A model generated the notes under the pieces. That model was not told where the DNA came from. It ran no database searches and saw nothing but the letters and a program-made list of their open reading frames with translations. A stretch of DNA of 44,860 bases, taken from the NCBI RefSeq assembly GCF_021531315.1, contig NZ_JAFBIQ010000018.1, positions 1-44,860 on the forward strand, read 5' to 3'. This DNA comes from Oscillibacter valericigenes (lineage in GTDB: Bacteria > Bacillota > Clostridia > Oscillospirales > Oscillospiraceae). This document shows, piece by piece, positions 1,498-36,539 of the stretch. Position numbers and translations under genes: made by a program. Numbering within the stretch: position 1 is the stretch's first letter; the number at the start of each line of letters is the position of its first letter.

Positions 1498-1713
1498 GTG
1501 AACGTGTTTGAACAGATCACCAAAAGCCCGGAAGTGCTGGGCGAATTCTTGCGGGGCCTGCCTGTCATTGAAGCGCCGTGGGACCGGGAGTTTCAAGAAC
1601 GGTTTTGCGCCGATTGCCTTTACCTGAATTGCGACGGTTGCCCGCATGAGGAATACCGAAACAATCCGCTTTGGTGGCTGACCCTTGAAGCGGAAGAGAG
1701 GGCGGCAGAATGA
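1498..1713 (+). CDS. Cysteine-rich small protein, unknown
   Basis: 71 residues from a GTG start with GGAGGG 8 bases upstream; stop overlaps the next start (ATGA). Residues about 38-50 contain CADCLYLNCDGC, four cysteines suited to a metal site. No family recognised. Its position between the HTH protein and the glycosylase is the only context. Confidence 0.65.
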   Translation: MNVFEQITKSPEVLGEFLRGLPVIEAPWDREFQERFCADCLYLNCDGCPHEEYRNNPLWWLTLEAEERAAE

Positions 1714-2570
1714 GCGCGGCGGTTCTCCGGGTTTCCCATTTCGATTTAGACAAAATCGCCGCCAGCGGTCAATGCTTCCGATGGGAAAAACTCTATACCC
1801 GGAAATACAGAATCCCGGCGGGCGACGCTTGCGCCTACGTTACGCAGACGGGCGACACCCTGACCGTTGACGATCAGAACGTTTTGACCTCTTCCGTCGA
1901 GTTTTGGGCGAACTACTTTGCCGTATATGACGACTACGCCGGAATGTGGCGGGAGATCAACCGATACGCGGCGGAGGATGGCCCGGAAGCCTATTTGACC
2001 CGCGCCGCCCGCGCTTCCGACGGGGTTGTGATTCTGAACCAGCCTATATGGGAAACGATAGTTTCTTTCATGGTATCGCAGAACAACAATATTCCCCGCA
2101 TTCGGCGAAGCATTCAGGCGATTTGCGCGGAGTGCGGCACGCTTCATACATCGACATACGACTATTGGTACGGATTCCCGACCCCGGACGCGCTGGCCTG
2201 CGCTGACCTTTCAAACGCCGGGCTGGGCTACCGCGAACCGTACATAAAGGACCTTGCCGCGGCGGTTGCCGCCGGGCGGTTCGACCTGAACTTTCTTCAA
2301 ACGGCGGACTATGAAACCGCCCGCGCATACCTGAAAAGCGTTCGAGGTATCGGCGACAAGGTGGCGAATTGCATTTGCCTTTTTGCCTTGGGCCATAAAG
2401 CCGCATTCCCGGTTGACACGTGGATTCGCCGCGCGGTTGATCGTGAATTTGGCGGAGAATTCCCCGCCGCCCGATATGCCGGGTATGCGGGCCTGATTCA
2501 ACAATTCATGTTCTACTACGAAAAGAACGGCGACGTTCCGGCAGTAAGAAAGGCGGCGGAAAATGCTTGA
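1710..2570 (+). CDS. 8-oxoguanine DNA glycosylase of the OGG1 type (HhH-GPD)
   Basis: 286 residues, the usual length of bacterial OGG1-like proteins. The helix-hairpin-helix GIGDKVANCI carries the expected Schiff-base lysine K217, and PVDTWI carries the catalytic aspartate D236; an N-terminal OGG-type region (FDLDKIAASGQCFRWEK) precedes them. The family removes oxidised guanine and cleaves the strand through its lyase. It overlaps both neighbours by 4-8 bases, so it is translated as part of the phage early operon. A phage copy may protect its own DNA or work on modified bases; that is inference. Confidence 0.88.
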   Translation: MSAAVLRVSHFDLDKIAASGQCFRWEKLYTRKYRIPAGDACAYVTQTGDTLTVDDQNVLTSSVEFWANYFAVYDDYAGMWREINRYAAEDGPEAYLTRAARASDGVVILNQPIWETIVSFMVSQNNNIPRIRRSIQAICAECGTLHTSTYDYWYGFPTPDALACADLSNAGLGYREPYIKDLAAAVAAGRFDLNFLQTADYETARAYLKSVRGIGDKVANCICLFALGHKAAFPVDTWIRRAVDREFGGEFPAARYAGYAGLIQQFMFYYEKNGDVPAVRKAAENA

Positions 2571-3009
2571 AATCGTACCCATGACGCTAAAAGAAGCAAA
2601 CGCGTTTGTAGAGCAAAACCACCGTCACCACGGGCCGACCGTCGGACACAAGTTTTCAATCGGAGTTTCGGACGGCGAAAAGATTGTAGGGGTTGCCATT
2701 GTGGGCCGTCCTGTTGCCCGGCATTTAGACGACGGGTGGACGCTGGAGGTCAACAGACTTTGCACGGACGGGACGCGCAATGCCTGTTCAATGCTTTATG
2801 CCGCCGCATGGAGAGCCGCCCGCGCTATGGGCTATAAGCGGGTTGTCACCTACATTCTCGAATCGGAGAACGGCGCAAGCTTGCGCGCCGCCGGGTGGAA
2901 ATGCGTAGGACAAGCGGGGGGCCTGCGGTGGACAGGAAAACGCCGCCCGGAAGTGGACCTTTACCCCGCACAAATGAAAATTAGGTTTGAACGGGAGGAA
3001 TCGACATGA
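2563..3009 (+). CDS. GNAT-like acetyltransferase-fold protein (XF1762 type)
   Basis: 148 residues. The order VGVAIVGRPVARHLDD.WTLEVNRLCTDGTRNACSMLYAAAWRAARAMGYKRVVTYIL resembles the acyl-CoA-binding core of GNAT proteins of the phage XF1762 type, with the LEVNRLCTDG signature. Substrate unknown. The start overlaps the glycosylase stop by 8 bases, indicating coupling. Confidence 0.75.
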   Translation: MLEIVPMTLKEANAFVEQNHRHHGPTVGHKFSIGVSDGEKIVGVAIVGRPVARHLDDGWTLEVNRLCTDGTRNACSMLYAAAWRAARAMGYKRVVTYILESENGASLRAAGWKCVGQAGGLRWTGKRRPEVDLYPAQMKIRFEREEST

Positions 3010-3964: not shown

Positions 3965-4368
3965 CACCAAAATATGAGTTTGTCGCCGTCGATTTTGACG
4001 GAACGCTTTGCACCGACGCTTTCCCGGAAGTTGGAAAGCCGAAAACGCTTGTGATCGAATATGTGAAATTGCTGGCGGCGGAGGGGGCAAAGATTATCCT
4101 TTACACCAGCCGGGAGAATGGAACGCGGCCCCTGCTTGATGAAGCGGTGGCGTTCTGCAATGCGCAGGGAATCCCGCTGTATGCGGTCAACGAGAATCCG
4201 GGAAACCCGTATGCGGCCCGGTTTGGGCTGAAACCGTCGGACGGGCGCAAGGTGTACGCCGATCTTTACATAGACGACAAGGCCCAAAGCCCGGACGACA
4301 TCGAGGACGTGATGGCTATTTTAGGGCCTGAATTAAAACGGAGATCGGAAAGGAGGGAAACACCATGA
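3961..4368 (+). CDS. HAD-superfamily hydrolase-like protein (BT0820 type)
   Basis: 135 residues. Motif I DFDGTL (residues 11-16), motif II ILYTSRENG around 47-55, and a late acidic motif YADLYIDDKA match compact HAD phosphatases of the BT0820 group. The absence of a cap domain fits this short subfamily. Likely removes a phosphate from a nucleotide or nucleic-acid end; substrate not inferable. In the early operon with overlapping ends. Confidence 0.8.
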   Translation: MTPKYEFVAVDFDGTLCTDAFPEVGKPKTLVIEYVKLLAAEGAKIILYTSRENGTRPLLDEAVAFCNAQGIPLYAVNENPGNPYAARFGLKPSDGRKVYADLYIDDKAQSPDDIEDVMAILGPELKRRSERRETP

Positions 4369-4679
4369 CGCAGAAGATTATAACAATCACCGTCGGAGCG
4401 GGACAAGCCCGCCCGCGGCGGCGGCGGACCCGGCGGCGCTTCCGGGTGAACCTCTGGACCGTTGCGAAGTATGCGGCCCTGACGGTTGCCGGAATCCTGC
4501 TTTTTCGAGCGGGCGCGGCCTACGCTTTCAGGTGCCGCGGATATGCGGCGGTGGGCGGCGAAATATTCGCCCTCTTCCTCCCGGCTATCTATTACGCGGT
4601 TTCAACGACCGCCCGCGACGTGATCGAAGATTTGAAAAACGGCTTCAAGCCGAATTTTAAGGAGGACGAAGAACAATGA
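4365..4679 (+). CDS. Small membrane protein
   Basis: 104 residues: a very basic N-terminal stretch (about 16-28, mostly Arg), then a hydrophobic segment about 32-53 and a second one around 65-80, and a charged tail. Inner-membrane topology likely. It directly precedes, and overlaps by 4 bases, the DGR-target gene. Confidence 0.6.
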   Translation: MTQKIITITVGAGQARPRRRRTRRRFRVNLWTVAKYAALTVAGILLFRAGAAYAFRCRGYAAVGGEIFALFLPAIYYAVSTTARDVIEDLKNGFKPNFKEDEEQ

Positions 4680-5404
4680 AAAAGCTTAGCACCTTGCAGG
4701 CCGGAACGCATTTCATGTACGGCGGCGTTGAATGGGTCAAGCTGGGAAAAGTGGTTTCCGGCGGCGTGCTTGCCCTGTCTGTAACCTGTATTTCTGAACA
4801 GGCATTTGACGCGGAGAACTGCAACGACTGGCGCAAGTCGTCTTTGCGCCGTGAACTGAACGGCCCGTTCCTTGACGCGCTGGTTTCGGAGGGCGCGGAC
4901 CGCGCCGCGTTCATGGATTGGGAAAGCGACCTGACCGCCGACGACGGCATGACCGACTACGGGACCGCAACCGATAAAATCGCCCTGCTTTCCGACGGCC
5001 TTTACCGTCAATTCCGCGCCATCATTCCCCTTTTGGATGATTGGTTTTGGACCCTTACGCCGTGGTCCTGCAAAGAGGAATACAAAGCCTACGTCCGCAT
5101 CGTCGATTCCTCCGGCGCGTTGGACGGCAACAGCGCGTACTACGGCCACAACGGCGTTCGCCCGCTTTGCTATCTGAACTCTGAAATCTTGGTATCTATC
5201 CCCGAAGAGGACAAGGAAGCGGAGCGCAACACCTACGACGAAGCGGTAAGCGCCGCCCGCGACGATATTTTGAATATGCTGAACGCGTACCCCGTCGAGG
5301 TTTGGGGCGACGCGCTGGGCGCGGCGGTTGCTTCCCTGTTCCGGGCAAAGCTGGACGCGGCAGAGATCAGCGAGGAAGAGAAAGCAAAGGCGGCGGAGGG
5401 CTGA
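4676..5404 (+). CDS. DUF6273-type protein carrying a remote DGR variable repeat (second target)
   Basis: 242 residues. The C-type-lectin-like DUF6273 pattern is visible: WRKSSLRRELN early, a DDWFWTLTPWS strand, then VRIVDSSGALDGNSAYYGHNGVRPLCYL and EILVS. Residues 138-164 are encoded by bases that copy the template repeat at 23.6 kb except at template adenines, so this gene is a DGR target. A further 70-residue acidic helical tail follows the variable stretch, which is unusual because variable repeats normally sit at the extreme C-terminus. There is no signal peptide, and the gene is in the early, not the tail, operon. It may bind a variable ligand inside the cell or be added to particles late; both are open. 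Confidence 0.85.
   Translation: MKKLSTLQAGTHFMYGGVEWVKLGKVVSGGVLALSVTCISEQAFDAENCNDWRKSSLRRELNGPFLDALVSEGADRAAFMDWESDLTADDGMTDYGTATDKIALLSDGLYRQFRAIIPLLDDWFWTLTPWSCKEEYKAYVRIVDSSGALDGNSAYYGHNGVRPLCYLNSEILVSIPEEDKEAERNTYDEAVSAARDDILNMLNAYPVEVWGDALGAAVASLFRAKLDAAEISEEEKAKAAEG
5088..5166 (+). repeat. DGR variable repeat VR2 (remote copy)
   Basis: 79 bases aligned to template bases 23581-23659. Ten differences, all at positions where the template has A (for example AAT to GAT, AAC to GGC, AAC to CAC). No template C, G or T is changed. It ends in the GC-rich GGCGTTCGCCCGCT block followed by T where the template has C, as expected at an initiation-of-mutagenic-homing site. Confidence 0.92.
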
Positions 5405-5505: not shown

Positions 5506-5523
5506 CAACCTAACGTTAGTATA
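5506..5523. promoter_or_regulatory. Operator copy 1 (one good half-site)
   Basis: Right half TAACGTTAGTATA matches the 18-bp palindrome found at 31.0 and 32.2 kb; the left half is degenerate. It overlaps the -10 of a leftward promoter. Confidence 0.55.
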
Positions 5524-5840: not shown

Positions 5841-6665
5841 GTGCGAAGCTTTATGCGAGAAAAAAAGATTTATTGCGGGAGCAATTACCGGGAGGTTGAT
5901 ATATTTTCCTACACCGACGGACAGAAAACAGCGGCAGGCCGCGGGAAGCGTTCAAAAAAGGTCAAGGAATCAGAGCCAAAGCAAAGGAACCTGAACGACA
6001 AGAACGCGCGCCGCTATTTCATCCAGCTTGGGAACCTGAATTTCGGGGACGACCCGGACGCGTTGCACGTGACGGCTACATACAGCGCGAAATATCTTCC
6101 GCAATCCATAGAGGACGCGGAGCGGGAAGCGACAAACTATTTGCGCCGGGTCCAGTACGCGAGGAAGAAAGCGGGGTTGCCGCCCCTGAAATATATTCTT
6201 GTCACCGCCTGCACCACGAAGAAGAACAGCGACAAGCCCGTTCGCATTCATCACCATATCGTTATGAACGGCGGGCTTGAACGTGACACCGTGGAAGAGT
6301 TGTGGCGCAAGCGGAAGCGAAAGGGCCAGAAACAGGGCGACCGAATCGGATTTTGCAACGCTGACCGCCTGCAAGCCGATGAAAACGGAATTGCCGCCCT
6401 CTGCAACTACCTTGTGAAGCAATCCGGCGGGAAAAAGCGGTGGACTTCCTCGCACAACCTGAAAAAGCCATACAGCCGCACGAACGACGGCAAATATAAT
6501 CATCGGCAAATTGAGAAATGGGCGCGGGAGCGTCCGGGCCGGGAGTTTTGGGAAAAGAAATACCCCGGATGGACCCTGACCGACGATGATTACGGCATTA
6601 CCTACGAATACAACGACTACACCGGGTGGGCAATCTACCTGAAATTACGACGAAAAAAAGAATAG
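5841..6665 (+). CDS. HUH-type rolling-circle replication initiator
   Basis: 274 residues, GTG start with AGAGGGTG at the right distance. The metal-binding cluster HHH is at 137-139 (IHHHIVMNG), and the catalytic tyrosine is Y190 in CNYLVKQ, giving the HUH then Y order of rolling-circle Rep proteins. Basic residues crowd both ends. Such proteins nick one strand at the origin and stay linked to the 5' end through the tyrosine; P2 uses an analogous A protein. The 17-bp inverted repeat just upstream is the obvious candidate target. Confidence 0.85.
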   Translation: MRSFMREKKIYCGSNYREVDIFSYTDGQKTAAGRGKRSKKVKESEPKQRNLNDKNARRYFIQLGNLNFGDDPDALHVTATYSAKYLPQSIEDAEREATNYLRRVQYARKKAGLPPLKYILVTACTTKKNSDKPVRIHHHIVMNGGLERDTVEELWRKRKRKGQKQGDRIGFCNADRLQADENGIAALCNYLVKQSGGKKRWTSSHNLKKPYSRTNDGKYNHRQIEKWARERPGREFWEKKYPGWTLTDDDYGITYEYNDYTGWAIYLKLRRKKE

Positions 6666-9841: not shown

Positions 9842-10519
9842 GTGTTCGACCTGAACCGCATTTATAACGCTGATTGCATGGAAGCAATGAAAGAAATCCC
9901 GGACAATTTCTTTCAACTTGCGATATGCGACCCGCCTTACGGAATCGGACACGACGGGCAACGGCAGAGGGTCCACAACAACCCGAAGCACAACCGCAAA
10001 TATCACGCCCGGAAAGGCTGGGACAAGGAACCCCCGCCGCCCGAATACTTCCGCGAACTCGAACGGGTATCGGTAAATCAAATCATTTGGGGTGGAAACT
10101 ATTTCGTCCCCTCCCTGACAAAAGGCGCACGGGGCTGGATTGTTTGGGACAAAGGGCAACACGGCCTTTCAATGAGCGATTGCGAACTTGCCTATTCGTC
10201 GTTTGATTGCCCGACGCGGGTTGTTGTTATCAATCGCGCGGTTCTGCAAAGCGAGGGACCGACGATACACCCGACGCAAAAGCCCGTTCGCCTGTACGAA
10301 TGGATTTTGAAGAACTACGCCCGGCCCGGTGATCGAATATTAGACACCCACGCCGGGAGCGGGTCAAGCTGTATCGCCTGTTACAACATGGGTTTTGAAT
10401 TCCTCGCATTTGAAGCGGACCCGGACTATTGCGCGGCGGCGGTGGAACGTCTGGACCGGGAACGGGCGCAAATCCGCCTTTGCGATTACCTGAAAGAGAA
10501 TCAAGAAACTTTATTTTGA
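9842..10519 (+). CDS. DNA (N6-adenine or N4-cytosine) methyltransferase, beta-class order
   Basis: 225 residues, GTG start. Motif IV DPPYGIG is near residue 28-34 and precedes HPTQKP and the cofactor motif ILDTHAGSGSS near 162-172, the beta-class order. Solitary, without a restriction partner, so a phage self-protection or regulatory methylase is likely. Target sequence cannot be read from the protein. Confidence 0.88.
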   Translation: MFDLNRIYNADCMEAMKEIPDNFFQLAICDPPYGIGHDGQRQRVHNNPKHNRKYHARKGWDKEPPPPEYFRELERVSVNQIIWGGNYFVPSLTKGARGWIVWDKGQHGLSMSDCELAYSSFDCPTRVVVINRAVLQSEGPTIHPTQKPVRLYEWILKNYARPGDRILDTHAGSGSSCIACYNMGFEFLAFEADPDYCAAAVERLDRERAQIRLCDYLKENQETLF

Positions 10520-11193: not shown

Positions 11194-11430
11194 ATGGAGT
11201 TTATCGAATTCGTGTTTTCAAGCTTTTGGATTTGGCTGGGGTTCGTCGTCCTGATCGTCGCGGCGGGCGAAGCTGTTTCCGGCATTGTGGCGGAGATCAG
11301 GCAGAAACGCAAGATTTCTGTTTACCGCACGGGCGACGTTGTGCGGGTGGAAGTCGAGAACGCAGGCCGCGGGGATATTTCGGCGGCGGTCAAGGCCGCG
11401 AACGAGCGGGCGGCGGAGGTTGAGGAATGA
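11194..11430 (+). CDS. Single-pass membrane protein
   Basis: 78 residues. One transmembrane helix at about 6-28 (FVFSSFWIWLGFVVLIVAAG), then a basic patch and a soluble tail with a short beta segment (ISVYRTGDVVRVEVEN). Unknown. Confidence 0.55.
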   Translation: MEFIEFVFSSFWIWLGFVVLIVAAGEAVSGIVAEIRQKRKISVYRTGDVVRVEVENAGRGDISAAVKAANERAAEVEE

Positions 11431-11849
11431 AAGCATATACCGTTCACCAGCCTTACGCATGGGCAACGGTTATCGGGTTAAAGCATTATGAAACCCGAAC
11501 CCGGCGGACAAATATTCGGGGCCGCGTCGCTGTCCATGCGGCAAAGAAAATCGACAAGGGCGACCGCGTTTATATGGACATTCTTTCGGCGGCGGGTGCG
11601 GAAGAACTCGCGTATCACGCTTGCAGGAAATCACACCCGGAGGAATACGGCGCGGTAGTCGGCACGGTTGAAATCGTCGATTGCGTCCCCGTAGAAAAGA
11701 TCATGGACAAGTTGACACCGCTTGAAATGGCGCTGGGCGACTATTCGCCGGGGCGGTTCGCATGGGTGCTTGAAAACCCGGTCATGTTCAATTTGCCGAT
11801 TCCAGCCCGCGGTCAACAAGGCTGGTGGAATTGGGAGGAACCAAAATGA
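11427..11849 (+). CDS. ASCH-domain protein
   Basis: 140 residues. MKAYTVHQPYAWATVIGLKHYETR at the start, RGRVAVHAAKK and GAVVGTVEIVDCVPVE are the ASCH/PUA-like barrel signature, including the conserved E-T-R and H-A. ASCH domains bind RNA or modified nucleotides, and some hydrolyse acylated nucleosides. ATGA overlaps on both ends. Confidence 0.85.
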   Translation: MKAYTVHQPYAWATVIGLKHYETRTRRTNIRGRVAVHAAKKIDKGDRVYMDILSAAGAEELAYHACRKSHPEEYGAVVGTVEIVDCVPVEKIMDKLTPLEMALGDYSPGRFAWVLENPVMFNLPIPARGQQGWWNWEEPK

Positions 11850-12688
11850 AATGCCGGGAATGCGAATACGCTTCCGTTCACACATACCCGCGCCGCGGGA
11901 ATGGGTATAGCGCCCATATCGGGCAATTTTTACAGGAAGCGTCATTTTGCAAACACCCGGATTGCAAACCGCCGGGGCCGTTGCTGTTCTACGGAAAAAC
12001 AGCGCCGCAATATGCGGACGTTCCCGCATGGAAGAAAGCTAATAACATCAACAGCAAAACGCAGATCGTCTGCTGGCCTTTGGTCAAGCTGGGCGACCGC
12101 GTTTTTCATTTGTCCACGCAGGCCGCGGGGCGCATGGGCGCGACCGATTCGGACAATGGCGGTTGCCCGGCGGAAAGCCCGTCGAACAAGTCTTTGCAGA
12201 TCGACAGCGCCGTTCTTGCCGACGGTACGGTTATTCTGCTGGATCTCCAGCAGGCAAACTATCTGAACAGCAACGGCATTGTAACCGCGCTGAACTTCAT
12301 CGGCGGTTATGTCCTTTGGGGCAATGAAACGGCCTGCTTCCCCGCTGATACGGACGTGAAGAATTACTTCATCTGCATTTCCCGTATGTTCGGCTGGGTT
12401 GCGAACACCCTTGTTCTCAGCTATTGGAGCAAGGTTGACAAGAAAATGACGCGCCGCCTGATCGACAGCATTGTTGATTCCGTGAATATCTGGCTGAACG
12501 GCCTTACCAACGAAGAAAAGTTGCTGGGCGGACGCGTCGAATTCAAGGAGGAAGAAAACAGCACGACCGCGCTTATGGCGGGCAAGGCAGTTTTCCATAT
12601 CTACATGACCCCGCCCAGCCCCGCAAAGGAACTGGAATTCGTGCTGGAGTACGACGCGGAATACGTGTCCGCGGCGCTGGCGGCGTAA
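11846..12688 (+). CDS. In-frame fusion: early zinc-site protein N-terminus joined to C-terminal half of tail sheath
   Basis: 280 residues of two unrelated parts. Residues 1-62 (C3, C6, C35, C40; KTAPQYADVPAW) belong to a small phage early protein. From about residue 66 (NNINSKTQIVCWPLVKLGDRVFHLSTQAAG) the sequence is the C-terminal half of a myophage tail sheath: LNFIGGYVLWGNETA, ISRMFGWVANTL, RRLIDSIVDSVNIWLNGLT. A normal sheath is about 450-500 residues, so its N-terminal half is missing, as are all genes usually between the two (terminase, portal, protease, capsid, connectors). The join is near 12029-12041. Start is ATGA-coupled to the ASCH gene. The product is unlikely to form a working sheath. 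Confidence 0.8.
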   Translation: MKCRECEYASVHTYPRRGNGYSAHIGQFLQEASFCKHPDCKPPGPLLFYGKTAPQYADVPAWKKANNINSKTQIVCWPLVKLGDRVFHLSTQAAGRMGATDSDNGGCPAESPSNKSLQIDSAVLADGTVILLDLQQANYLNSNGIVTALNFIGGYVLWGNETACFPADTDVKNYFICISRMFGWVANTLVLSYWSKVDKKMTRRLIDSIVDSVNIWLNGLTNEEKLLGGRVEFKEEENSTTALMAGKAVFHIYMTPPSPAKELEFVLEYDAEYVSAALAA

Positions 12689-22886: not shown

Positions 22887-23110
22887 CGGAATATGCGTGT
22901 ACCCGGCGGGAATTGTCCTGCATTATCGGGAATCTTTTTACAGAGATCGAACCGCCTTGCGAACGGTGCGGTGCCGCTGATGAATTGACGATCAGCGGCA
23001 CCACCTACACCGGGAGCCGGGCGGTTCTGACTATTACCGAATACGGATTCAAATTCGAGGGCGACCCGTCAGAGGTTGCGAGAATCCGGGAAAGGCGGTG
23101 CCTACAATGA
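22880..23110 (+). CDS. Small Cys-containing protein before avd
   Basis: 76 residues from an ATG that overlaps the fibre stop (ATGTTGA). PPCERCGAADELTISGTTYTGSRAVLTITEYGF has a CxxC and a beta hairpin. Coupled to avd through ATGA. Could be a tail-tip or DGR accessory; unrecognised. Confidence 0.55.
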   Translation: MLTEYACTRRELSCIIGNLFTEIEPPCERCGAADELTISGTTYTGSRAVLTITEYGFKFEGDPSEVARIRERRCLQ

Positions 23111-23535
23111 ACCAGCCGCCCGCAGAGGGTAAGCAAAACGAATTTATCATCATCACCAAAGCAAAGGATTTAGCCTTTCATACATACATGATGGCGACCG
23201 AAAGGCGATTTCCAAAGAAACACCGCAAATTAGCGGTTGACCTTATGGACTTTGCGCGCGAAATCGTGATTCACATTCAGGACGCGAACGACCTTGATAT
23301 TTCCGACGCAGGGGAATTCAAGGAACGGCGTTACGAACAAAAGAAAGCCCTTTCGCGCTGTAAAGACGTTCTTTTCCTGATCGAGTTAGCCGAAAGGCGC
23401 AATCTTATTTCAAAAGAGCAATGCACCGCATGGGCGCAATACGCTATTGAAGTAAAGCGCATGACGGCAAGCTGGAGAAAGAAAGACCGGGAGCGATTCG
23501 CAGAAATGCAAAGAGGAAACACGCCGCGGCGGTAA
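23107..23535 (+). CDS. avd: DGR accessory protein Avd (four-helix bundle)
   Basis: 142 residues from ATG, ATGA-coupled upstream. NEFIIITKAKDLAFHTYMMATERRFPKKHRKLAVDLMDFAREIVIHIQDAND..RRYEQKKALSRCKDVLFLIELAERRNLISKEQCTAWAQYAIEVKRMTASW has the basic four-helix-bundle pattern of bAvd proteins. Avd binds the reverse transcriptase and the template RNA and is needed for mutagenic retrohoming. It lies directly before the template repeat, as in the BPP-1 DGR. Confidence 0.92.
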   Translation: MNQPPAEGKQNEFIIITKAKDLAFHTYMMATERRFPKKHRKLAVDLMDFAREIVIHIQDANDLDISDAGEFKERRYEQKKALSRCKDVLFLIELAERRNLISKEQCTAWAQYAIEVKRMTASWRKKDRERFAEMQRGNTPRR

Positions 23536-23549: not shown

Positions 23550-23911
23550 CTTGGGGTGCGCTTTGTAGCGTCCAACTCGTACAACGTCCGCAACGTCAAT
23601 TCCTCCGGCGCGTTGAACAACAACAACGCGTACAACGGCAACAACGGCGTTCGCCCGCTCTGATGGAACACCGCGATTGAGTACGCCGAAAGGCGGAAAA
23701 CAGAGGACCATCATCAAAGGAAAGCGTATCCCTCCGCCGTGGTGACAGCACGACGGTAAATACAAGATTGGTGAAGCAAGGCCCACGGGAACCAGCTTCC
23801 GTCCCGCCGCGGACGCGTGGCGGGGTCCGATGATGAAGCATTGCAACCGCAGGCGGCGACGCTTGCGGCCCCTACAAGGCGGATTCTATACACGGCAAGG
23901 AGTTTTTTATA
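23536..23911 (+). ncRNA. DGR template RNA region: TR plus structured spacer up to the RT
   Basis: 376 bases without a gene. After the TR come a CGCC-GAAA-GGCG hairpin (23684-23695), a 9-bp CCCGCCGCG/CGTGGCGGG hairpin with a GACG loop (23803-23824), and a 9-bp CCGCAGGCG/CGCTTGCGG hairpin with a GCGA loop (23847-23868). In the BPP-1 system the spacer between TR and RT is required for cDNA priming with Avd-RT; this spacer is a strong candidate for the same role. Confidence 0.75.
23568..23659 (+). repeat. DGR template repeat (TR)
   Basis: 92 bases between avd and the RT. 24 adenines, nearly all in AAC/AAT codons when read in the phase of the targets, a design that lets A-changes give many residues without stops. 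It matches VR1 over 92 bases and VR2 over 79 bases with all mismatches at adenines. Ends in GGCGTTCGCCCGCT then C-TGA, where both VRs have T-TG: an IMH* versus IMH difference that fixes the donor role. Confidence 0.95.
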
Positions 23912-25033
23912 ATGCAAACCGCAGATTTCGAGCGGGTCTATGATTTCGGCAACCTATACGCCGGATTCCTAAAGGCCCGCCGGGGCAAACGGGGCAAAGC
24001 CAGCGTCGCAAAGTTTGAAGCAAACTTGCTGGAAGCCCTTTGCCTGCTATCGGAAATGCTGAAAAACAAGACTTACCGCCCGTCTGATTATTTCGTGTTC
24101 CGTGTCTACGAACCGAAAGAAAGAATCGTTATGACAAACGCATTCAAAGACAAGGTGGTTCAGCATTCCTTATGCGACAACATACTTGAACCCGCGTTCT
24201 CCCGTTCGTTTATTCGGGACAACTACGCTTCACAACCGGGCCGCGGGACCCATGACGGCCTATACAGGCTGGAAGAATTCATGCGGTCATACTTCTTTGA
24301 ACGCAAAGCAAAGGCAGACGCGGAACGGAAAGCCGCCGGGTTGCCGCCCGTCCCAACGCAGGACGGCGGGTACGCCGACGGCTGGGTTCTCAAATGTGAC
24401 ATTTCTAAATATTTTTACTCAATTCAGCACGAACCATTAAAACAAATGGTCCGGCATTACTTCCGGGACCCCGATCTTTTGTGGCTGATCGACCTTATCA
24501 TTGACAGCACAGAAAATCCGGGAATCCCTATCGGCAACCAAACTTCACAATGGTTCGCCGTTATGTATCTTTCGGGGTTAGATCATTTTGTCAAAGAAAA
24601 GCTGGGCATTCGCTTTTACGGGCGGTACATGGACGACTTTTACTTGATACATGAGGACAAGGCGTATTTGCAGTATTGCTGGCGGGAAATCGAAAAATTC
24701 CTTGCCCCGCTGGGCCTGACCCTGAACAACAAAACAAACATTTTCCCGTTGCGGAACGGTATTGACTTCTTGGGATTCCATACGTATTTGACCGATTCCG
24801 GGAAAGTGATTCGCAAAGTTAGGAGGGTAAGCAAATGTAAGGAGCAAAAGAAACTACGGAAACAGCGGGTTTTACTGGATAAAGGCAAGATCACAATGGA
24901 GAAAATACGGCAATCATACGGAAGCTGGCGGAGCCACGCCGAAAAGGGTAATTGCTATCACCTTATCCGGGAAACCGACGCGCTGTTTGAGGAATTATTT
25001 TCAGACTATCTAACAAAGGAGCGTGTAGCATAA
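23912..25033 (+). CDS. DGR reverse transcriptase
   Basis: 373 residues, AAGGAG upstream. Catalytic aspartates D163 (KCDISKYFYSI) and YMDD at 239-242; the DGR-specific motif 4 IGNQTSQ at 207-213 replaces the QG of group II intron enzymes. The short N-terminus and the lack of maturase, X/thumb-endonuclease domains fit DGR RTs. It copies the TR RNA with adenine-specific errors, and the cDNA replaces variable repeats. Stop overlaps the next start (TAATG), so RT and its target are coupled. Confidence 0.95.
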   Translation: MQTADFERVYDFGNLYAGFLKARRGKRGKASVAKFEANLLEALCLLSEMLKNKTYRPSDYFVFRVYEPKERIVMTNAFKDKVVQHSLCDNILEPAFSRSFIRDNYASQPGRGTHDGLYRLEEFMRSYFFERKAKADAERKAAGLPPVPTQDGGYADGWVLKCDISKYFYSIQHEPLKQMVRHYFRDPDLLWLIDLIIDSTENPGIPIGNQTSQWFAVMYLSGLDHFVKEKLGIRFYGRYMDDFYLIHEDKAYLQYCWREIEKFLAPLGLTLNNKTNIFPLRNGIDFLGFHTYLTDSGKVIRKVRRVSKCKEQKKLRKQRVLLDKGKITMEKIRQSYGSWRSHAEKGNCYHLIRETDALFEELFSDYLTKERVA

Positions 25034-26751
25034 TGGCACAGGCATTAAGCGCGCTGGCCGTCGGCGCACTCGTCAAGGACACGGGGACCCTCTACAACGG
25101 CAAGCCCATTGTTTGGAAAATTGCCGACAAAGGCCACACGGGTTATCCCTCCGGGTCCGTGACGCTGATTACGGAAAAAATTATTTCGCTGAAATGCTTT
25201 GACGCTATCGAATCCGGCAACAGCGACAGCAACCGTAAATCCTACGGCAACAACCGATATATTTATTCCAACCTCCGGCAATGGCTGAACAGCGCCGCGT
25301 CAGCGGGCGCGTGGTACAGCGCACAGCACAGCGCGGACGCGGCCCCCACAAATGCCAACGTTTGGAGCAACTACAACGAATACGACGCGGAAGCGGGCTT
25401 CCTTGCCGGATTCTCTACGAACTTCATTGCCGCCCTGCTTTCCACAACGCACACCGTCGGCAAAGCTTCCGTGGACGGCGGCGGCACCGAATCTTGCGTT
25501 GACAAGATTTTCCTTGCCACCTGTACGGAAGTTGGCTTGTCGGGCGACGTGACCGCGGGAAGCAAGCTGGCCTTGTTCAGCGACAACAATTCCCGTCTTG
25601 CGTACCCCACGGCGGAAGCTGTCAGCAAGAGCGAATACACATCATCCAGTTTGTCGGCAACGCAAGCTTGGTGGTGGTGGCTTGCCGACGCTTACGCGTC
25701 CAACTCGTGCAACGTCCGCAACGTCTATTCCTCCGGCGCGTTGGACCTCAACGACGCGTACAGCGGCTACCGCGGCGTTCGCCCGCTTTGTAATTTGTCC
25801 TCTTCAATCTTGGTATCTGATACCGCAGATTCGGATGGTGCATACACCATCATTTGGAACCGCGCCCCCTCTGCCCCTGCAAGTATCGACGTTCCGACCA
25901 GCGTTCGCGGCGGCGAAAGCCTGACCGTGACTTGGGGAGCCGCCACGGATGAAGATGGCAACCTTTCCGGCTACACCCTCGAAAGGCAGTACGACGGGGG
26001 TTCGTGGGCGCAGGTTTACAAGGGAATCAACAGGACGTACACCGACGCGATCACAAAGGGCTGGACAAGCGTTGCGTACAGGGTCAAGGCTTACGACAGC
26101 GCGGGCGCAGAATCGGCGTACACCACCAGCGCGACCCGAACCGTAATCAACAACACCGCCCCCACCATCGACGGCGCAGATTCGGACCTCGGCACAAAGA
26201 CCGGGGCGTTTGCGCAAGCCTACGTTGTGACCGACCCGGACAGCGGGCAGACGGTAACGGTTGTCGAGAAGATCGACGGCACGGAAAAACGAAGCTTCAC
26301 CGCAACCAGCGGGCAAAGCTATTCGTTCAACGTCACCGCGGCGGAATGGGTGAAGCTGTTGAATGGGTCCCACACCCTGACGATCACCGCGACGGACGAT
26401 TACGGCGGCACCGCCACCCGGACCTATACGTTCACGAAGAACGAAACCGAAATTGAATTGACCCTTGCGACCCCGCTTGCCGCCGACGACATGATTACAA
26501 AAGCAATTATGAGCGTCACCCGGCAGATTCCGGCGGGGGCAACGTTCACCGTTGAAGTGTGCAACAACGGCAACGACGCTTCCCCCACATGGGAGGACGT
26601 GACGCAGGCCGTCACCAGCGGGAGCAAATTTTTCCTTTCCAACACCACAAAGACGGCTGACGCGTGGGGCTATAACTTCCGAATCAAGGTGAAGCGCAAC
26701 GACGCGACGGGCGATTGCTTTATTTCTTCCGTGGGAGGTAATTTTGAATGA
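25033..26751 (+). CDS. DGR target: DUF6273 (C-type-lectin-like) protein with C-terminal FN3/Ig-like arms
   Basis: 572 residues. Residues about 1-262 form a DUF6273 fold (RYIYSNLRQWLN, AWWWWLADAYASNS, GVRPLCNLSSSILVS). Variable residues 222-252 are encoded by VR1. Then an FN3 domain (about 277-370, SGYTLERQYDGGSWAQVYKG..VAYRVKAYDSAGAES), an Ig-like/cadherin-like domain (about 372-470) and a beta-rich end. The variable stretch is thus internal, with 310 residues after it. Probably exposed at the tail end as a receptor-binding protein. Confidence 0.93.
   Translation: MAQALSALAVGALVKDTGTLYNGKPIVWKIADKGHTGYPSGSVTLITEKIISLKCFDAIESGNSDSNRKSYGNNRYIYSNLRQWLNSAASAGAWYSAQHSADAAPTNANVWSNYNEYDAEAGFLAGFSTNFIAALLSTTHTVGKASVDGGGTESCVDKIFLATCTEVGLSGDVTAGSKLALFSDNNSRLAYPTAEAVSKSEYTSSSLSATQAWWWWLADAYASNSCNVRNVYSSGALDLNDAYSGYRGVRPLCNLSSSILVSDTADSDGAYTIIWNRAPSAPASIDVPTSVRGGESLTVTWGAATDEDGNLSGYTLERQYDGGSWAQVYKGINRTYTDAITKGWTSVAYRVKAYDSAGAESAYTTSATRTVINNTAPTIDGADSDLGTKTGAFAQAYVVTDPDSGQTVTVVEKIDGTEKRSFTATSGQSYSFNVTAAEWVKLLNGSHTLTITATDDYGGTATRTYTFTKNETEIELTLATPLAADDMITKAIMSVTRQIPAGATFTVEVCNNGNDASPTWEDVTQAVTSGSKFFLSNTTKTADAWGYNFRIKVKRNDATGDCFISSVGGNFE
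25696..25787 (+). repeat. DGR variable repeat VR1 (adjacent copy)
   Basis: 92 bases aligned to the TR with 10 differences, all at template adenines (TAC to TGC, AAT to TAT, AAC to GAC, CTC, AGC, TAC and CGC). The two ends and all C, G and T are identical. T follows the GCCCGCT block where the TR has C. Confidence 0.95.
25812..25824 (+). promoter_or_regulatory. Post-VR1 hairpin (candidate retrohoming cruciform)
   Basis: GGTATCTGATACC, a perfect inverted repeat of 5-6 bp lying 25 bases after VR1. Short cruciforms after a VR raise homing efficiency in BPP-1. VR2 is followed by the same AATCTTGGTATCT but lacks the second arm. Confidence 0.5.
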
Positions 26752-31036: not shown

Positions 31037-31065
31037 ATTATATACTAACGTTAGTATATAGTCAA
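31037..31065 (-). promoter_or_regulatory. Promoter with operator copy 2 filling its spacer
   Basis: Minus strand TTGACT (31060-31065), 17-bp spacer, TATAAT (31037-31042). The palindrome TATACTAACGTTAGTATA (31041-31058) fills the spacer and overlaps the -10, so a bound protein would block RNA polymerase. Confidence 0.85.
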
Positions 31066-32226: not shown

Positions 32227-32255
32227 ATTATATACTAACGTTAGTATATCGTCAA
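32227..32255 (-). promoter_or_regulatory. Promoter with operator copy 3
   Basis: Minus strand TTGACG (32250-32255), 17-bp spacer, TATAAT (32227-32232). The palindrome at 32231-32248 is identical to copy 2 and placed the same way. Confidence 0.85.
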
Positions 32256-32680: not shown

Positions 32681-34360
32681 TCATGCGACCTCAACGGGTA
32701 CCTGCTCAGCCACAGCCTCGGCCATGCTCTGAGGCAGTTCATCCACCAGACCGATGTCACGGTAGTAGATGCGTACCTCCTGCGGTGCTGTGCGGGAGTA
32801 TTTCTCCGCACGCTCTCCGACCTCTACCCGCTTGATGAAGATGCGCAGGATCTCAGAGGTCAGCTCCGGAATCTCACTGTACCGTTTGGCGTTCTCGATG
32901 AACCGGGCGATGTCGGAGCTGGAGTCTTTCAGTTCCTGAAGCCGTGCTTCCATAGAAGGAAGCTGCTCCTGGATATCTTTCTGTTCGGTGGTGTACTCCC
33001 GAGACAGGATGCGGTACTGCTCGTCCGGGATACGGCCAAGGACGCTGTCCTCGTAGAGTCGCTTGAACAGCTTCGAAAGCTCGGTCTGGCGCTTCTGCAT
33101 GGTGTCGATCTTCTTCTGGAGCACCGTGATTTCCTGCTGCGCCTCCTTGCCCTGCTTCTTGCGGATGTGTTCTGCGAATCGTAATTCGTTCTGACGGGCG
33201 AAATGTGTGACACGGCGGATGTCATCCAGAAGGATGGCATTGAGCTCCTGCTCCCGAATGTAGTGAGCTGTGCAGGCGTCCTTACCTTTCTTCTTATAGA
33301 CGGAACACATGAAGTTGTTCTTTACCGCATCCATGGTATGCGCCCGGTGCAGTACCAGCGTGCCACCGCAGTCCATGCAGTAAATCAATCCAGAGAAGAT
33401 ATTCTGCTCCTCCATTTTTGCCGGACGCCGCTTGTGTTTGCGAATCTCCTGTACGATCTCCCAAGTCTGCTGCGTAATAAGTGCTTCATGGGTGTTCTCG
33501 AAGCGGAGCTGCTCAGATTCCGGACGCTCGATACGCTTCTTGTTCTTGAAGGACAGCGTGGTGGACTTCAGGTTGATAGTGTGGCCCAGATAAGTCTCAT
33601 CTTCCAGAATTCCGGCAATCGTTTTGCTGGACCAATTATAGGGTTCGGTAATATTGGTGTTGGTCAGCTCTACGCTATTCTTCTGGTAGTAGTGATAACC
33701 GGGCGTGGGGATCTTGTCCTTCTTGAGCTGCTTTGCAATCTGGGAAGGTCCTTTTCCGGAAAGACAGAGGTCGAAGATATACCGTACCACCGGAGCTGTT
33801 TCCGGGTCAGGTACCATGTGTCGCTTGGGGTCTGCCGGGTCTTTCATATACCCATAGCGTGGACGGGAGGAAACTCTGGCGCCAGTTTCGGCTTTGAGCC
33901 GAACTACGGAGCGGCCTTTCTTGCTGCAGTCCTTGGCATAGAATTCATTCATGAGATTCCGGAAGGGTGTGAAGTCGTTGGTAGACTCGTACAGGCTGTC
34001 CACGCCATCATTGACGGCGATGAAGCGTACACCGTAGCTGGGGAAGATGAGTTCGGTGTACTGACCCACCTGAAGGTACTCACGGCCCAGCCGGGACATG
34101 TCCTTCACGATGAGGGTTTCCACCTGACCGTTTTCCATCATCTCCATGACCTGCTGCCAGCCGGGGCGGTTGAAGTTAGTCCCGGAGTAGCCATCGTCAT
34201 ACAGGAATAGGGTATTGGTGAAGCCTTTCTCAGCAGCGTATTTCTCCAGCAGAAGTTTCTGATTCTGGATGCTGTTGGAGTCATCCGTCTTGTTTGCTTT
34301 CTGTGTATCCTCCTGACTCAGCCGGCCATAGAGGATGGTGTATTTTTCGTTGCTTGCCAT
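32681..34360 (-). CDS. Large serine recombinase (TnpX-like)
   Basis: 559 residues from ATG at 34360 with AAAGGAG; the frame extends further but with non-protein-like sequence. Catalytic domain about 1-150 with S15 in YGRLSQ and RPGWQQVMEMMENGQVETLIVKDMSRLGR; recombinase domain about 170-290; zinc-ribbon region (CMDCGG..C) and coiled coil (residues about 370-460). Such enzymes excise and insert transposon-like elements without a host factor. It lies at the edge of the 32.6-40.4 kb element and is its probable mover. Confidence 0.92.
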   Translation of the reverse strand: MASNEKYTILYGRLSQEDTQKANKTDDSNSIQNQKLLLEKYAAEKGFTNTLFLYDDGYSGTNFNRPGWQQVMEMMENGQVETLIVKDMSRLGREYLQVGQYTELIFPSYGVRFIAVNDGVDSLYESTNDFTPFRNLMNEFYAKDCSKKGRSVVRLKAETGARVSSRPRYGYMKDPADPKRHMVPDPETAPVVRYIFDLCLSGKGPSQIAKQLKKDKIPTPGYHYYQKNSVELTNTNITEPYNWSSKTIAGILEDETYLGHTINLKSTTLSFKNKKRIERPESEQLRFENTHEALITQQTWEIVQEIRKHKRRPAKMEEQNIFSGLIYCMDCGGTLVLHRAHTMDAVKNNFMCSVYKKKGKDACTAHYIREQELNAILLDDIRRVTHFARQNELRFAEHIRKKQGKEAQQEITVLQKKIDTMQKRQTELSKLFKRLYEDSVLGRIPDEQYRILSREYTTEQKDIQEQLPSMEARLQELKDSSSDIARFIENAKRYSEIPELTSEILRIFIKRVEVGERAEKYSRTAPQEVRIYYRDIGLVDELPQSMAEAVAEQVPVEVA

Positions 34361-34430
34361 TGTTACTCCTTTCCGGGCAAGCCGATACGGTATCAACAAA
34401 CATACCGCATCTCCTGCCCAAAGTCTATTC

Positions 34431-34709
34431 TTAAATCGAGCCTTTTTCCAAATCGCTGTCGATGATTTGGAGCATTTGCTCCGTAGGTGTTCTCGCTTTC
34501 TCAGCGTTGGAGAGGATGGAACGAATGAGGAATCTTCTCTCACCCACGATCATTTCACGGTGCAGTTCCAACCCTTTGTCCGTATACCAATACGAAGTGT
34601 CACGGAAAATGGGCGTGACCGTATTCTCATCACGGCGGGCAACAACGCGCTCAGGGATATAGCCGCCAAGGATTCCAGTATCTCGATAGATCTCGTATTC
34701 GCTTTTCAT
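34431..34709 (-). CDS. Small element protein, unknown
   Basis: 92 residues from ATG with AAAGGA. EYEIYRDTGILGGYIPERVVARRDENTVTPIFRDTSYWYTDKGLELHREMIVGERRFLIRSILSNAEKARTPTEQMLQIIDSDLEKG shows an alpha/beta part then a helix. It neighbours the recombinase in the same direction. No family named with confidence. Confidence 0.6.
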   Translation of the reverse strand: MKSEYEIYRDTGILGGYIPERVVARRDENTVTPIFRDTSYWYTDKGLELHREMIVGERRFLIRSILSNAEKARTPTEQMLQIIDSDLEKGSI

Positions 34710-34758
34710 AAAGATCCTTTCCCCCAAAATCAATTTGGGCAATAAAAATAGCAGACCG

Positions 34759-36225
34759 TTACATGGTCTGCTGCTGTGCTTGTTCTGCCTGCTGATCTTC
34801 GGACCACTGCTGTTCTGTAGCTGGTTGCTCATCCTGCGTGAGCACCATGGCTACGCCAGCCACCAGTCCGATGACCGCGCCGATATTTTTGGATTCCTGT
34901 TCTGCCTGGATACGGCGGTAACGTTCCTCGGCATCTTCGTTACCATCTTCCAATAACGCTCCGGTTGCCGCCAGACCATACAGTCCAGCGTAGAGCGGCT
35001 TCATAGAAACAGGTTGCGGATATTGCTGACCACTGTCGCTGTGCCATACCCCATCCCCAGCAGCGCGCCCACGATGAGCAGCACCAGCACGATCCATTTG
35101 GCCACTACGATCAGGTCGAAGTCCGGAAGCCAGTCCAGCCATTTGCAGGTACGCTTTTCTTTCTTCTTCCCAGCCTGTTCCAGCAGAGTGGTCATCTCCG
35201 TCAACGATTTCTGGATCTCCGCCATGCTGTTCTGTACTGCTGTCAGATCCGTGTGGGATCTCAGGTTCGGAAGATACTCCCGCATCCCACGCACTTCCCA
35301 CCCGATGGATTCTGTTTTCTGTGTCAGCATCGTCAGAGCCTCCGGCAGCGGACACTGAATGACGATGGGTGTGATCGGTGAACTCGACTCCTGCGCTGTC
35401 GGCTGCGGTGAAGGCTCGGGCCGGTTCAGGGCCATGAGCTCGTCCATAGATAATTTCTTCTCTGATCCTGAATTCATATTCCATGTTCTCCTTCAAGTAT
35501 TTGTCACCGAACAGCAGGCGGTCACGGCACTGCCAACCGCTGGGTGTAGTGTAGGTGATATTCTTTCGGGACTTTTCCCAGCGAACCTTGTAGCCCTCGC
35601 TCTCCATCAGAGCAATAAATTCCTCGCGGTTGGAAGCGTGGCGCATACAGTCGTTGATGATATTCATGAGCTGCAGCTTCTTGCTCTGACCGCGGGCCGC
35701 CGTGTGATACTCTCCGATGGTCATAGCCTTTGTTTTCTGCTTTCGTTTCCTGGGTTGAAACACAGGGAGAGAAAACTCCGCACAGACCTGATCGTTGCGC
35801 TGCCGCAGTTCCTGCAGCTGTTCTTTGGCGATGTGCAGTTTCCGTCCGGTATCGAAGTTGACCGAGTTGATGATGAAGTGGGAATGGATGTGGTCACGGT
35901 CTGTGTGGGTGCAGACCAGAACTTCGTATCCCTCATAGTACTCCGCCAGCTTCAGCGCAGCCGTGTGAGCGGTGACCGGGTCGACTGCTTCGCCTTTCGG
36001 GAAGCTCTGTACCATGTGGTAGAACAGCACACCGTCCGTTTTGTGGTAAAGCCGCTTGGTGGTCATGAAATCCGCATAGACAGATTCCGGCTGACAGTTG
36101 ATGCCTGTGACCAACCGCCGCCCCTCGAACTCGGTCTTTTTATCCCGCATGGTATACCGCATCACGGCCCCCATGCATCCGCCGCTCTGTCCCCGCTTGT
36201 AGTTGGTGAAGCTGATGATCGCCAT
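34759..36225 (-). CDS. MobA-type relaxase
   Basis: 488 residues from ATG at 36225 (GGTGGTG upstream). Relaxase domain: ISFTNYKRGQSGGCMGAVMRYTMRDK, catalytic tyrosine region about 20-60, HTDRDHIHSHFIINSVNFDTGRKLH (metal-binding HIHSHF). The later part has a disordered linker and one membrane-like segment near the C-terminus (IGAVIGLVAGVAMVL). Nicks the element's transfer origin for mobilization by a helper. Encodes another gene within its 3' half. Confidence 0.9.
   Translation of the reverse strand: MAIISFTNYKRGQSGGCMGAVMRYTMRDKKTEFEGRRLVTGINCQPESVYADFMTTKRLYHKTDGVLFYHMVQSFPKGEAVDPVTAHTAALKLAEYYEGYEVLVCTHTDRDHIHSHFIINSVNFDTGRKLHIAKEQLQELRQRNDQVCAEFSLPVFQPRKRKQKTKAMTIGEYHTAARGQSKKLQLMNIINDCMRHASNREEFIALMESEGYKVRWEKSRKNITYTTPSGWQCRDRLLFGDKYLKENMEYEFRIREEIIYGRAHGPEPARAFTAADSAGVEFTDHTHRHSVSAAGGSDDADTENRIHRVGSAWDAGVSSEPEIPHGSDSSTEQHGGDPEIVDGDDHSAGTGWEEERKAYLQMAGLASGLRPDRSGQMDRAGAAHRGRAAGDGVWHSDSGQQYPQPVSMKPLYAGLYGLAATGALLEDGNEDAEERYRRIQAEQESKNIGAVIGLVAGVAMVLTQDEQPATEQQWSEDQQAEQAQQQTM
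35001..35477 (-). CDS. Membrane protein nested in the relaxase gene (MobB-like arrangement)
   Basis: 158 residues in another frame of the relaxase gene, ATG with AAGGAGA 9 bases before. Proline-rich N-terminus, coiled coil (LTAVQNSMAEIQKSLTEMTTLLEQAGKKKEK) and one C-terminal membrane helix (LIVVAKWIVLVLLIVGALLGMGYG). Over the same DNA the relaxase encodes only low-complexity linker, which supports this as the real constraint. The overlap recalls mobB inside mobA of ColE1-type plasmids. Confidence 0.7.
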   Translation of the reverse strand: MNSGSEKKLSMDELMALNRPEPSPQPTAQESSSPITPIVIQCPLPEALTMLTQKTESIGWEVRGMREYLPNLRSHTDLTAVQNSMAEIQKSLTEMTTLLEQAGKKKEKRTCKWLDWLPDFDLIVVAKWIVLVLLIVGALLGMGYGTATVVSNIRNLFL

Positions 36226-36227
36226 AG

Positions 36228-36539
36228 TCACCACCGCTTTCGTTCCAGGATCATTCGGACGGCGTCGCAGAGTTCAGAGAACGCTCGACATACGCTTTCC
36301 AAATCGATCACAGCCACTCGCCCCATGTGCGCCAGGGTGACGAGCTGGTTCAGATTTCTGCCGATGGACTTCAGCTCCTTCAGCACTTCTTTCAGGTCGT
36401 CGATGACCACCACCTGCTTTCCCAGGCAGCAGGCAGTTACATAGTCGCTCATAGACATTCCGGATTTTGCTGCCAGTGCTTTGATTTTCGTGCGGTTTTC
36501 AGAAGTCATCCGAGTGCTGAATTTAATATCTTTTTTCAT
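36228..36539 (-). CDS. MobC accessory mobilization protein
   Basis: 103 residues from ATG with GGGAGG. KFSTRMTSENRTKIKALAAKSGMSMSDYVTACCLGK is the RHH part; LKEVLKELKSIGRNLNQLVTLAHMGR is the MobC signature. It opens DNA at the transfer origin for MobA. Coupled to the relaxase (2 bases apart). Confidence 0.9.
   Translation of the reverse strand: MKKDIKFSTRMTSENRTKIKALAAKSGMSMSDYVTACCLGKQVVVIDDLKEVLKELKSIGRNLNQLVTLAHMGRVAVIDLESVCRAFSELCDAVRMILERKRW

Follow-up and report, generated by a model that had tools for sequence, protein, structure and literature searches.

What does a phage gain when its diversity-generating retroelement (DGR) rewrites a gene outside the tail module? This question is raised by a 44,860-nucleotide stretch of Oscillibacter valericigenes DNA (contig NZ_JAFBIQ010000018.1, positions 1 to 44,860 of the forward strand; hereafter the window, G000:C32 in the locus naming of this analysis), in which one DGR cassette matches two genes. 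The first, tgt1, adjoins the cassette in the tail-lysis region; the second, tgt2 (4676..5404, plus strand), encodes a 242-amino-acid DUF6273 protein and lies in a replication and DNA-modification block. We favor the view that tgt2 acts outside the virion. With a probability of roughly 60%, it may be an early, non-virion binder with a hypervariable face that most likely serves counter-defence, as suggested by gene position, gene fusions and the pattern of its variable repeat.

The window contains a single cassette, in which a template repeat (TR, 23568..23662) is flanked by the accessory protein Avd (23098..23535; phrog_3206, E 2.1e-21) and the reverse transcriptase (RT, 23912..25033; RVT_1, E 8e-13; phrog_1423, E 1.3e-134; YMDD in the translation). 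Avd scored weakly in Pfam bAvd (E 0.082) and in NCBIfam DivGenRetAVD (19.7 bits; cutoff 80). The tgt1 gene (25033..26751) encodes a tentaclin-like protein of 572 residues with an N-terminal DUF6273 domain (E 5e-33; phrog_10993, E 3e-245) and an immunoglobulin (Ig)-like region, the Ig-like matches being weak and below the Pfam cutoff. The TR aligns in an ungapped register with a variable repeat (VR) in tgt1 (VR1, 25696..25790) and with another in tgt2 (VR2, 5088..5167), all of these features being on the plus strand.

Comparison of TR positions 23581-23659 with 5088-5166 showed 10 differences, every one of them at a TR adenine. The first difference after 5166 is a C-to-T change at 5167, the last base of VR2, and VR1 has the same change at 25788; these are VR-TR differences on the 3' side toward the presumed initiation of mutagenic homing (IMH) sequence. 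A scanner that favors mismatches at adenines placed 9/9 mismatches at A in segment 5089-5166 (21 A in 78 TR bases; hypergeometric P 1.6e-6), and equal mismatch penalties gave eight mismatches at A and one at C over 79 bases. A repeat finder independently put 5091, 23584 and 25712 in one family. Changes thus occur at TR adenines in both VR1 and VR2, and the DGR part of the finding is secure. The preliminary description of this locus had reported 79 bases of VR2 with 10 differences confined to TR adenines and a T/C switch, and one template diversifying two genes; its count was exact, and the two-gene relationship was confirmed.

We then considered the TR-VR2 pairing across relatives, which comprised 57 loci from viral contigs, 19 from species genomes and 10 from phage records; among 199 genomes near that of the window, 11 had a match, including the window's own and some that were weak or to tentaclin. 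A TR region for comparison was available for 29 remote copies of tgt2 (window included), and a matching TR was found for 27 of them, a set that includes phages nd4, nd12, Toutatis and Lelie. In four of the 27 (G087C2, G087C8, G012C89 and L128), the TR and tgt2 are on separate contigs of one genome. Since the main scanner, which picked the alignment diagonal, favors A mismatches, mismatches were counted again along it, all being penalized equally: 255/269 VR2 mismatches fell at TR adenines, which make up 584 of the 2164 TR bases. Among single pairs, L119 had 12/12 mismatches at A against the TR and 7/14 in comparison with VR1, and mismatches fell at A in 15/16 for Lelie VR2 and in 13/13 for VR2 of Toutatis gp24. 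Because some of the phages are close relatives, the 27 pairs do not represent 27 independent origins, although their VRs differ. A chance match between TR and VR2 was rejected, as codon-shuffled controls scored 12-18 (among those listed) and the 27 accepted pairs 38-81.5.

On a further 47 loci, three of which (L115, L125 and L126) are second copies of loci within the 29, a TR was found on the available stretch in none (0/47); this is expected if the TR is remote, more than ~10 kb off. More distant relatives, mostly tandem pairs adjoining the RT, were set apart (L101-L109 and L111). L101-L106, L108 and L111 carry tandem DUF6273 genes near the RT, several with VR-TR matches in both among the matches listed; theirs is a local two-target layout, unlike the remote layout of tgt2. 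Individual copies of tgt2 also differ in state: the gene is truncated in L012, and in L121 (10001-10728) its frame shifts within the VR. The window's own host genome contains a second, nd12-like DUF3310-tgt2 gene (L025, G000:C33:35046-35582), which lacks a cognate in the assembly, as the RT of the window is the only RT match there.

Natural variation between close relatives was concentrated in VR2. In 42/42 within-clade pairs from five clades, VR2 had diverged further than the remainder of tgt2, so the possibility that VR2 is fixed among relatives, which the preliminary description had named as a refutation, was not borne out. Three pairs had no difference outside VR2: L113 and L117, from different bacterial strains (0/686 bases outside, 14/88 inside), L005 and L009 (0/686 and 10/88), and L090 and L097 (0/800 and 9/73). 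Between the window and L002 the counts were 8/650 outside and 10/76 inside. Outside the VR, dN/dS ranged from 0.11 to 0.57 (13 pairs), indicating purifying selection on this part of tgt2. The concentration of divergence in VR2, together with dN/dS below 1 elsewhere, indicates that selection maintains tgt2 even as the VR within it is rewritten; the differences are those between natural assemblies, from which homing cannot be dated.

These data bear on the idea that VR2 is a bystander, a copy of the tentaclin DUF6273 region that moved into the early block and remains a target through a retained homing signal. The presence of tgt2 homologues in two genomes without an RT match (L124 in G228 and L131 in G233) fits this idea. 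It is nevertheless very improbable, given the dN/dS values outside the VR, the finding that the non-A bases of VR2 track the TR of their own clade, and the persistence of the tgt2 family in proteins with as little as 28-45% identity to that of the window. A derivation of VR2 by copying from VR1 was likewise not supported: the TR explains each of them, and their mutual agreement is at chance level (32/225 within phages, with 32.0 expected; 25 phages).

Where does tgt2 lie? In the window, nd4, nd12 and Toutatis clades, it is found among replication and DNA-modification genes, outside the tail module. In the window, a replication initiation protein is encoded downstream (5841..6665; phrog_3584, E 1.3e-80; Pfam REP_ORF2-G2P at 26.8 bits, just under the cutoff of 27.8), and the earlier placement of the remote target beside replication genes and away from the tail cluster therefore stands. 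The block also contains a DNA glycosylase (OGG_N/HhH-GPD profile match, 1710..2570), an XF1762-family/Mom-like protein (2563..3009; Pfam Mom 29.6 bits, cutoff 27.1; NCBIfam XF1762 225 bits, cutoff 50) and a DNA methylase (9842..10519; N6_N4_Mtase, E 1.4e-16), all on the plus strand. By coordinates, tgt2 and the RT are ~19 kb apart in the window. The distance is 19-21 kb in L116, L089, L093 and L129, ~33 kb in L113, L117, L121, L114 and L067, 35 kb in L119 and L127, and 38 kb in Toutatis; in the linear records as read, nd4 has the two 11 kb apart and nd12 13 kb. L003 has tgt2 closer than its relatives do, with ~7 kb to the RT and ~7.6 kb from tgt2 (1837) to a tentaclin-type match (9489) on a 10.3-kb contig.

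To survey neighbors, 37 loci were hand-picked from 52 rows to cut duplicates, and up to four plus-strand open reading frames (ORFs) on each side were taken with a simple caller, yielding 143 upstream and 140 downstream proteins. The downstream ORFs included 21 matches to phrog_3584 replication initiation, six to phrog_67 methyltransferase and five to Pfam RNase_T, with RecT (2), YqaJ (2), Mom (2) and SSB (1). Upstream, we found Dam (3), LPD15 (3; a family that we take to be linked to polyvalent conflict proteins), C5 methylase (2), D12 (2) and Lar (2), as well as pyrophosphatase-like and HAD-like families and helix-turn-helix proteins. Neighbor families were listed as the 25 commonest in each of four lists, 100 of 277 in all, and among these there was no capsid, portal, terminase or tail family, although single cases are possible. 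In Toutatis, an integrase and a repressor-like gene come first, followed by early genes, tgt2 (gp24, at 11505), Rep, annotated antiterminator Q (16711), packaging (from 24798) and tail. From this gene content and order, we infer that tgt2 is an early gene.

In part of the relatives, tgt2 is fused in frame to other domains. Of the 20 rows in the fusion check, 16 of which were nd12-like, six had DUF3310 and two had a Lar restriction-alleviation domain in frame ahead of tgt2, the start codon of tgt2 being retained inside the fused frame. All five fusions that were scanned (L062, L084, L097, G087C8, which is L126, and L083) passed the Pfam curated cutoffs, and the other three DUF3310 fusion rows were assigned from near-identical sequence. 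DUF3310 is presumably linked to T7 gp1.7. Lar was also found as a separate gene directly upstream of tgt2 in L069 and L082. The DUF3310-like N-terminal part of nd12_tgt2 has already been noted (Baykov 2023, PMC10743442), and the literature searched yielded no description of a DGR target fused to Lar. A possible earlier link between Lar and DGRs (PMC11318856) was set aside, as the passages that describe the Lar-like protein, in one prophage, do not connect it to a DGR target.

The tgt2 protein itself fits the phrog_9958 family of small DUF6273-only proteins with the VR in the C-terminal half; phrog_9958 covers residues 2-183 (E 4.7e-63), and Pfam DUF6273 matches residues 123-168 (E 4.7e-8). Profile scans found no Ig domain in tgt2. 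By hydropathy, without a signal-peptide predictor, there is no strong hydrophobic stretch (top 19-residue mean 1.57). Hydropathy does not separate a virion from a cytoplasmic protein here, since phage virion proteins usually lack signal peptides too. In an AlphaFold2 (AF2) model built from 43 sequences (mean pLDDT 90.8, pTM 0.72), the N-terminal part folds into a compact domain and the C-terminal part forms two long helices. In a Foldseek search with this model, the sole solved structure at E <= 0.001 was 9qa6, an IgA peptidase whose N-terminal domain is named as DUF6273 in PMC12402451. Solved C-type lectins appeared only at E near 1, and the lectin fold of tgt2 thus rests on PMC10743442.

Two functions have to be weighed on this evidence. 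Baykov 2023 (PMC10743442) described the tgt2 family as the second target of phages nd4 and nd12, which like the window have tentaclin and tgt2 on one TR and a VR2 shorter than VR1, and hypothesized an Mtd-like receptor-binding role. In that case the particle would carry tgt2 as a second protein for receptor binding or decoration, with its gene lying apart from those of the tail, and both targets would tune adsorption. This is consistent with the DUF6273 VR surface that tgt2 shares with tentaclin, with the same residues accepted in VR1 and VR2 (chi-square p 0.70, 25 phages), and with a weak match of the VR part to the "Hoc-like" phrog_10993 (E 1.2e-6). However, tgt2 lies on the replication side in several lineages, is fused in frame to Lar or DUF3310, and has no Ig anchor. 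It is also dispensable in nd4-like phages, since both targets are present in 39/54 of their genomes and single-target genomes keep tentaclin (PMC10743442). Together, these features point away from a particle protein, and we regard the Mtd-like role as doubtful.

Under the favored reading, tgt2 would be made early in the infected or lysogenic cell and would act in the cytoplasm or at the inner membrane, not in the particle. It may serve as a scaffold with a hypervariable face for binding host or rival-phage proteins that themselves change, and a phage with a VR2 variant that happens to bind would gain at the next infection. Counter-defence is the first choice of use, with superinfection exclusion next, because genes of anti-restriction type (Lar, methylases and Mom-like) occur near tgt2, as a raw observation. 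The more specific proposal, that tgt2 is a cytoplasmic DGR-diversified counter-defence binder of gut Clostridia phages, an antibody-like inhibitor re-randomized against host defence or rival phages and sometimes fused to Lar, is tentative.

A sub-case of the non-virion reading, whose odds overlap with those of the favored one, is that tgt2 works in the lysogen as a sensor for superinfection exclusion or prophage defence, perhaps with a two-transmembrane protein encoded upstream. In the window, tgt2 overlaps by 4 bases with a gene (4365..4679, plus strand) for a 104-residue protein with two hydrophobic stretches (by eye). A conserved protein of ~100 residues with two such stretches is encoded directly upstream of tgt2 in 10/13 window-clade loci listed, and DGR-diversified sensors have been proposed in bacterial defence (PMC10907252). 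In nd4, by contrast, a zinc-finger-like ORF lies directly upstream of tgt2, and in part of the nd12 clade DUF3310 or Lar does, which means that the pairing with the membrane protein is not constant. Neither an effector domain nor a PADLOC match was found, and we consider this sub-case unlikely.

Several observations weigh against an early, intracellular binder. Ten remote loci had no TR, namely L075 and L122 within the 29 and eight others (L110, L112, L124, L131, L002, L012, L025 and L032). There was no RT match in records G219, G221 and G199 (L110, L112 and L002, respectively), nor in the genomes of L124 and L131. All fusions come from one clade (nd12-like), with some rows being near-duplicates, and the NCBIfam Lar model scored 33.7 bits on L126, below its cutoff of 39.6. 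A cell-wall-hydrolase match lies a few genes downstream of tgt2 in nd4-like loci (above cutoff in L070 and L127, below in nd4), which weighs mildly against a purely intracellular block, and SLT/endolysin matches also occur among the neighbors. Early phage blocks often carry methylases, and the neighbor tallies are raw counts; moreover, some virion genes sit outside the structural block, so that position is no proof. The VR1/VR2 residue comparison is neutral, with no sign of tgt2-specific selection, and the PADLOC search gave no match. For Lelie, no read variation was reported at either VR, so homing was not caught in progress (PMC11792537). Particle proteomics was looked for in two papers, and neither contained any.

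That a DGR can have a non-structural or distal target is already in print, and the window adds a member. The claim that this would be a new use of the system is therefore not supported. Structural and non-structural DGR targets were contrasted by Roux 2021 (PMC8144416). In Quimbyviridae, Benler 2021 (PMC8008677) described a DGR target outside the structural module, beside methyltransferases and a MutY-like nuclease in a defence-related island, and proposed a role in phage-host conflict. The window is similar in having a DNA glycosylase and a methylase within ~5 kb of tgt2; Quimbyviridae differ in being Bacteroides phages with the target on the opposite strand and an RT split over three frames, and the likeness drawn here is one of setting. 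In four gut prophage species, Dahlman 2025 (PMC12629997) reported a second VR that is distal and close to counter-defence genes or methyltransferases; the passages on it do not name the target families. The putative antigen sensors of bacteria (PMC10907252) are likewise cytoplasmic DGR targets proposed for conflict, but their DGRs are cellular and come with NACHT or effector partners, which were not found for tgt2.

The tgt2 family as a second target is also known beyond nd4 and nd12. The Lelie/CP11 phages of Faecalibacterium have a large and a small DUF6273 target, both VRs of CP11 vary across 37 cognate genomes, and the function of the small target was left open by the authors (Gulyaeva 2024, PMC11792537). 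The account of Toutatis by Cornuault 2018 (PMC5883640) gives its target no function. The Results, Discussion and legends of PMC10743442 are silent on the placement of tgt2 beside replication genes and on fusions to Lar. As far as the literature was searched, what the present work adds is this placement in several clades, the fusions to Lar and the counts of divergence confined to VR2. The usual interpretation of phage DGRs is as tropism switches; if the favored reading is true, targeted hypermutation would also serve intracellular conflict, through a template shared with a surface protein. The replication-side position, the Lar and DUF3310 fusions and an inducible carrier phage, Lelie, whose host is recorded as Faecalibacterium sp. 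L2-61, make the question directly testable.

Other features of the window were also recorded. The ORF at 11825-12688 has an unrelated N-terminus joined to residues 62-287, which match the C-terminal half of a tail sheath. The genes that flank window positions 11427-12688 are 16.6 kb apart in G202 and 14.6 kb apart in G200, indicating that a stretch of about that size, where the head and packaging genes of the relatives are expected, is gone from the window; either a deleted prophage or a misassembly would account for this gap. An operator-like palindrome around CTAACGTTAGTATA has nine matches at <=2 mismatches (0.06 expected), with copies at 5510-5523, 31041-31058 and 32231-32248 among them, and a leftward sigma-70-like promoter match (5546-5518), aimed into tgt2, overlaps the copy that follows this gene. 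To the right of the prophage, the minus strand of 32681-36234 carries recombinase-like and relaxase-like genes, as judged from translations only.
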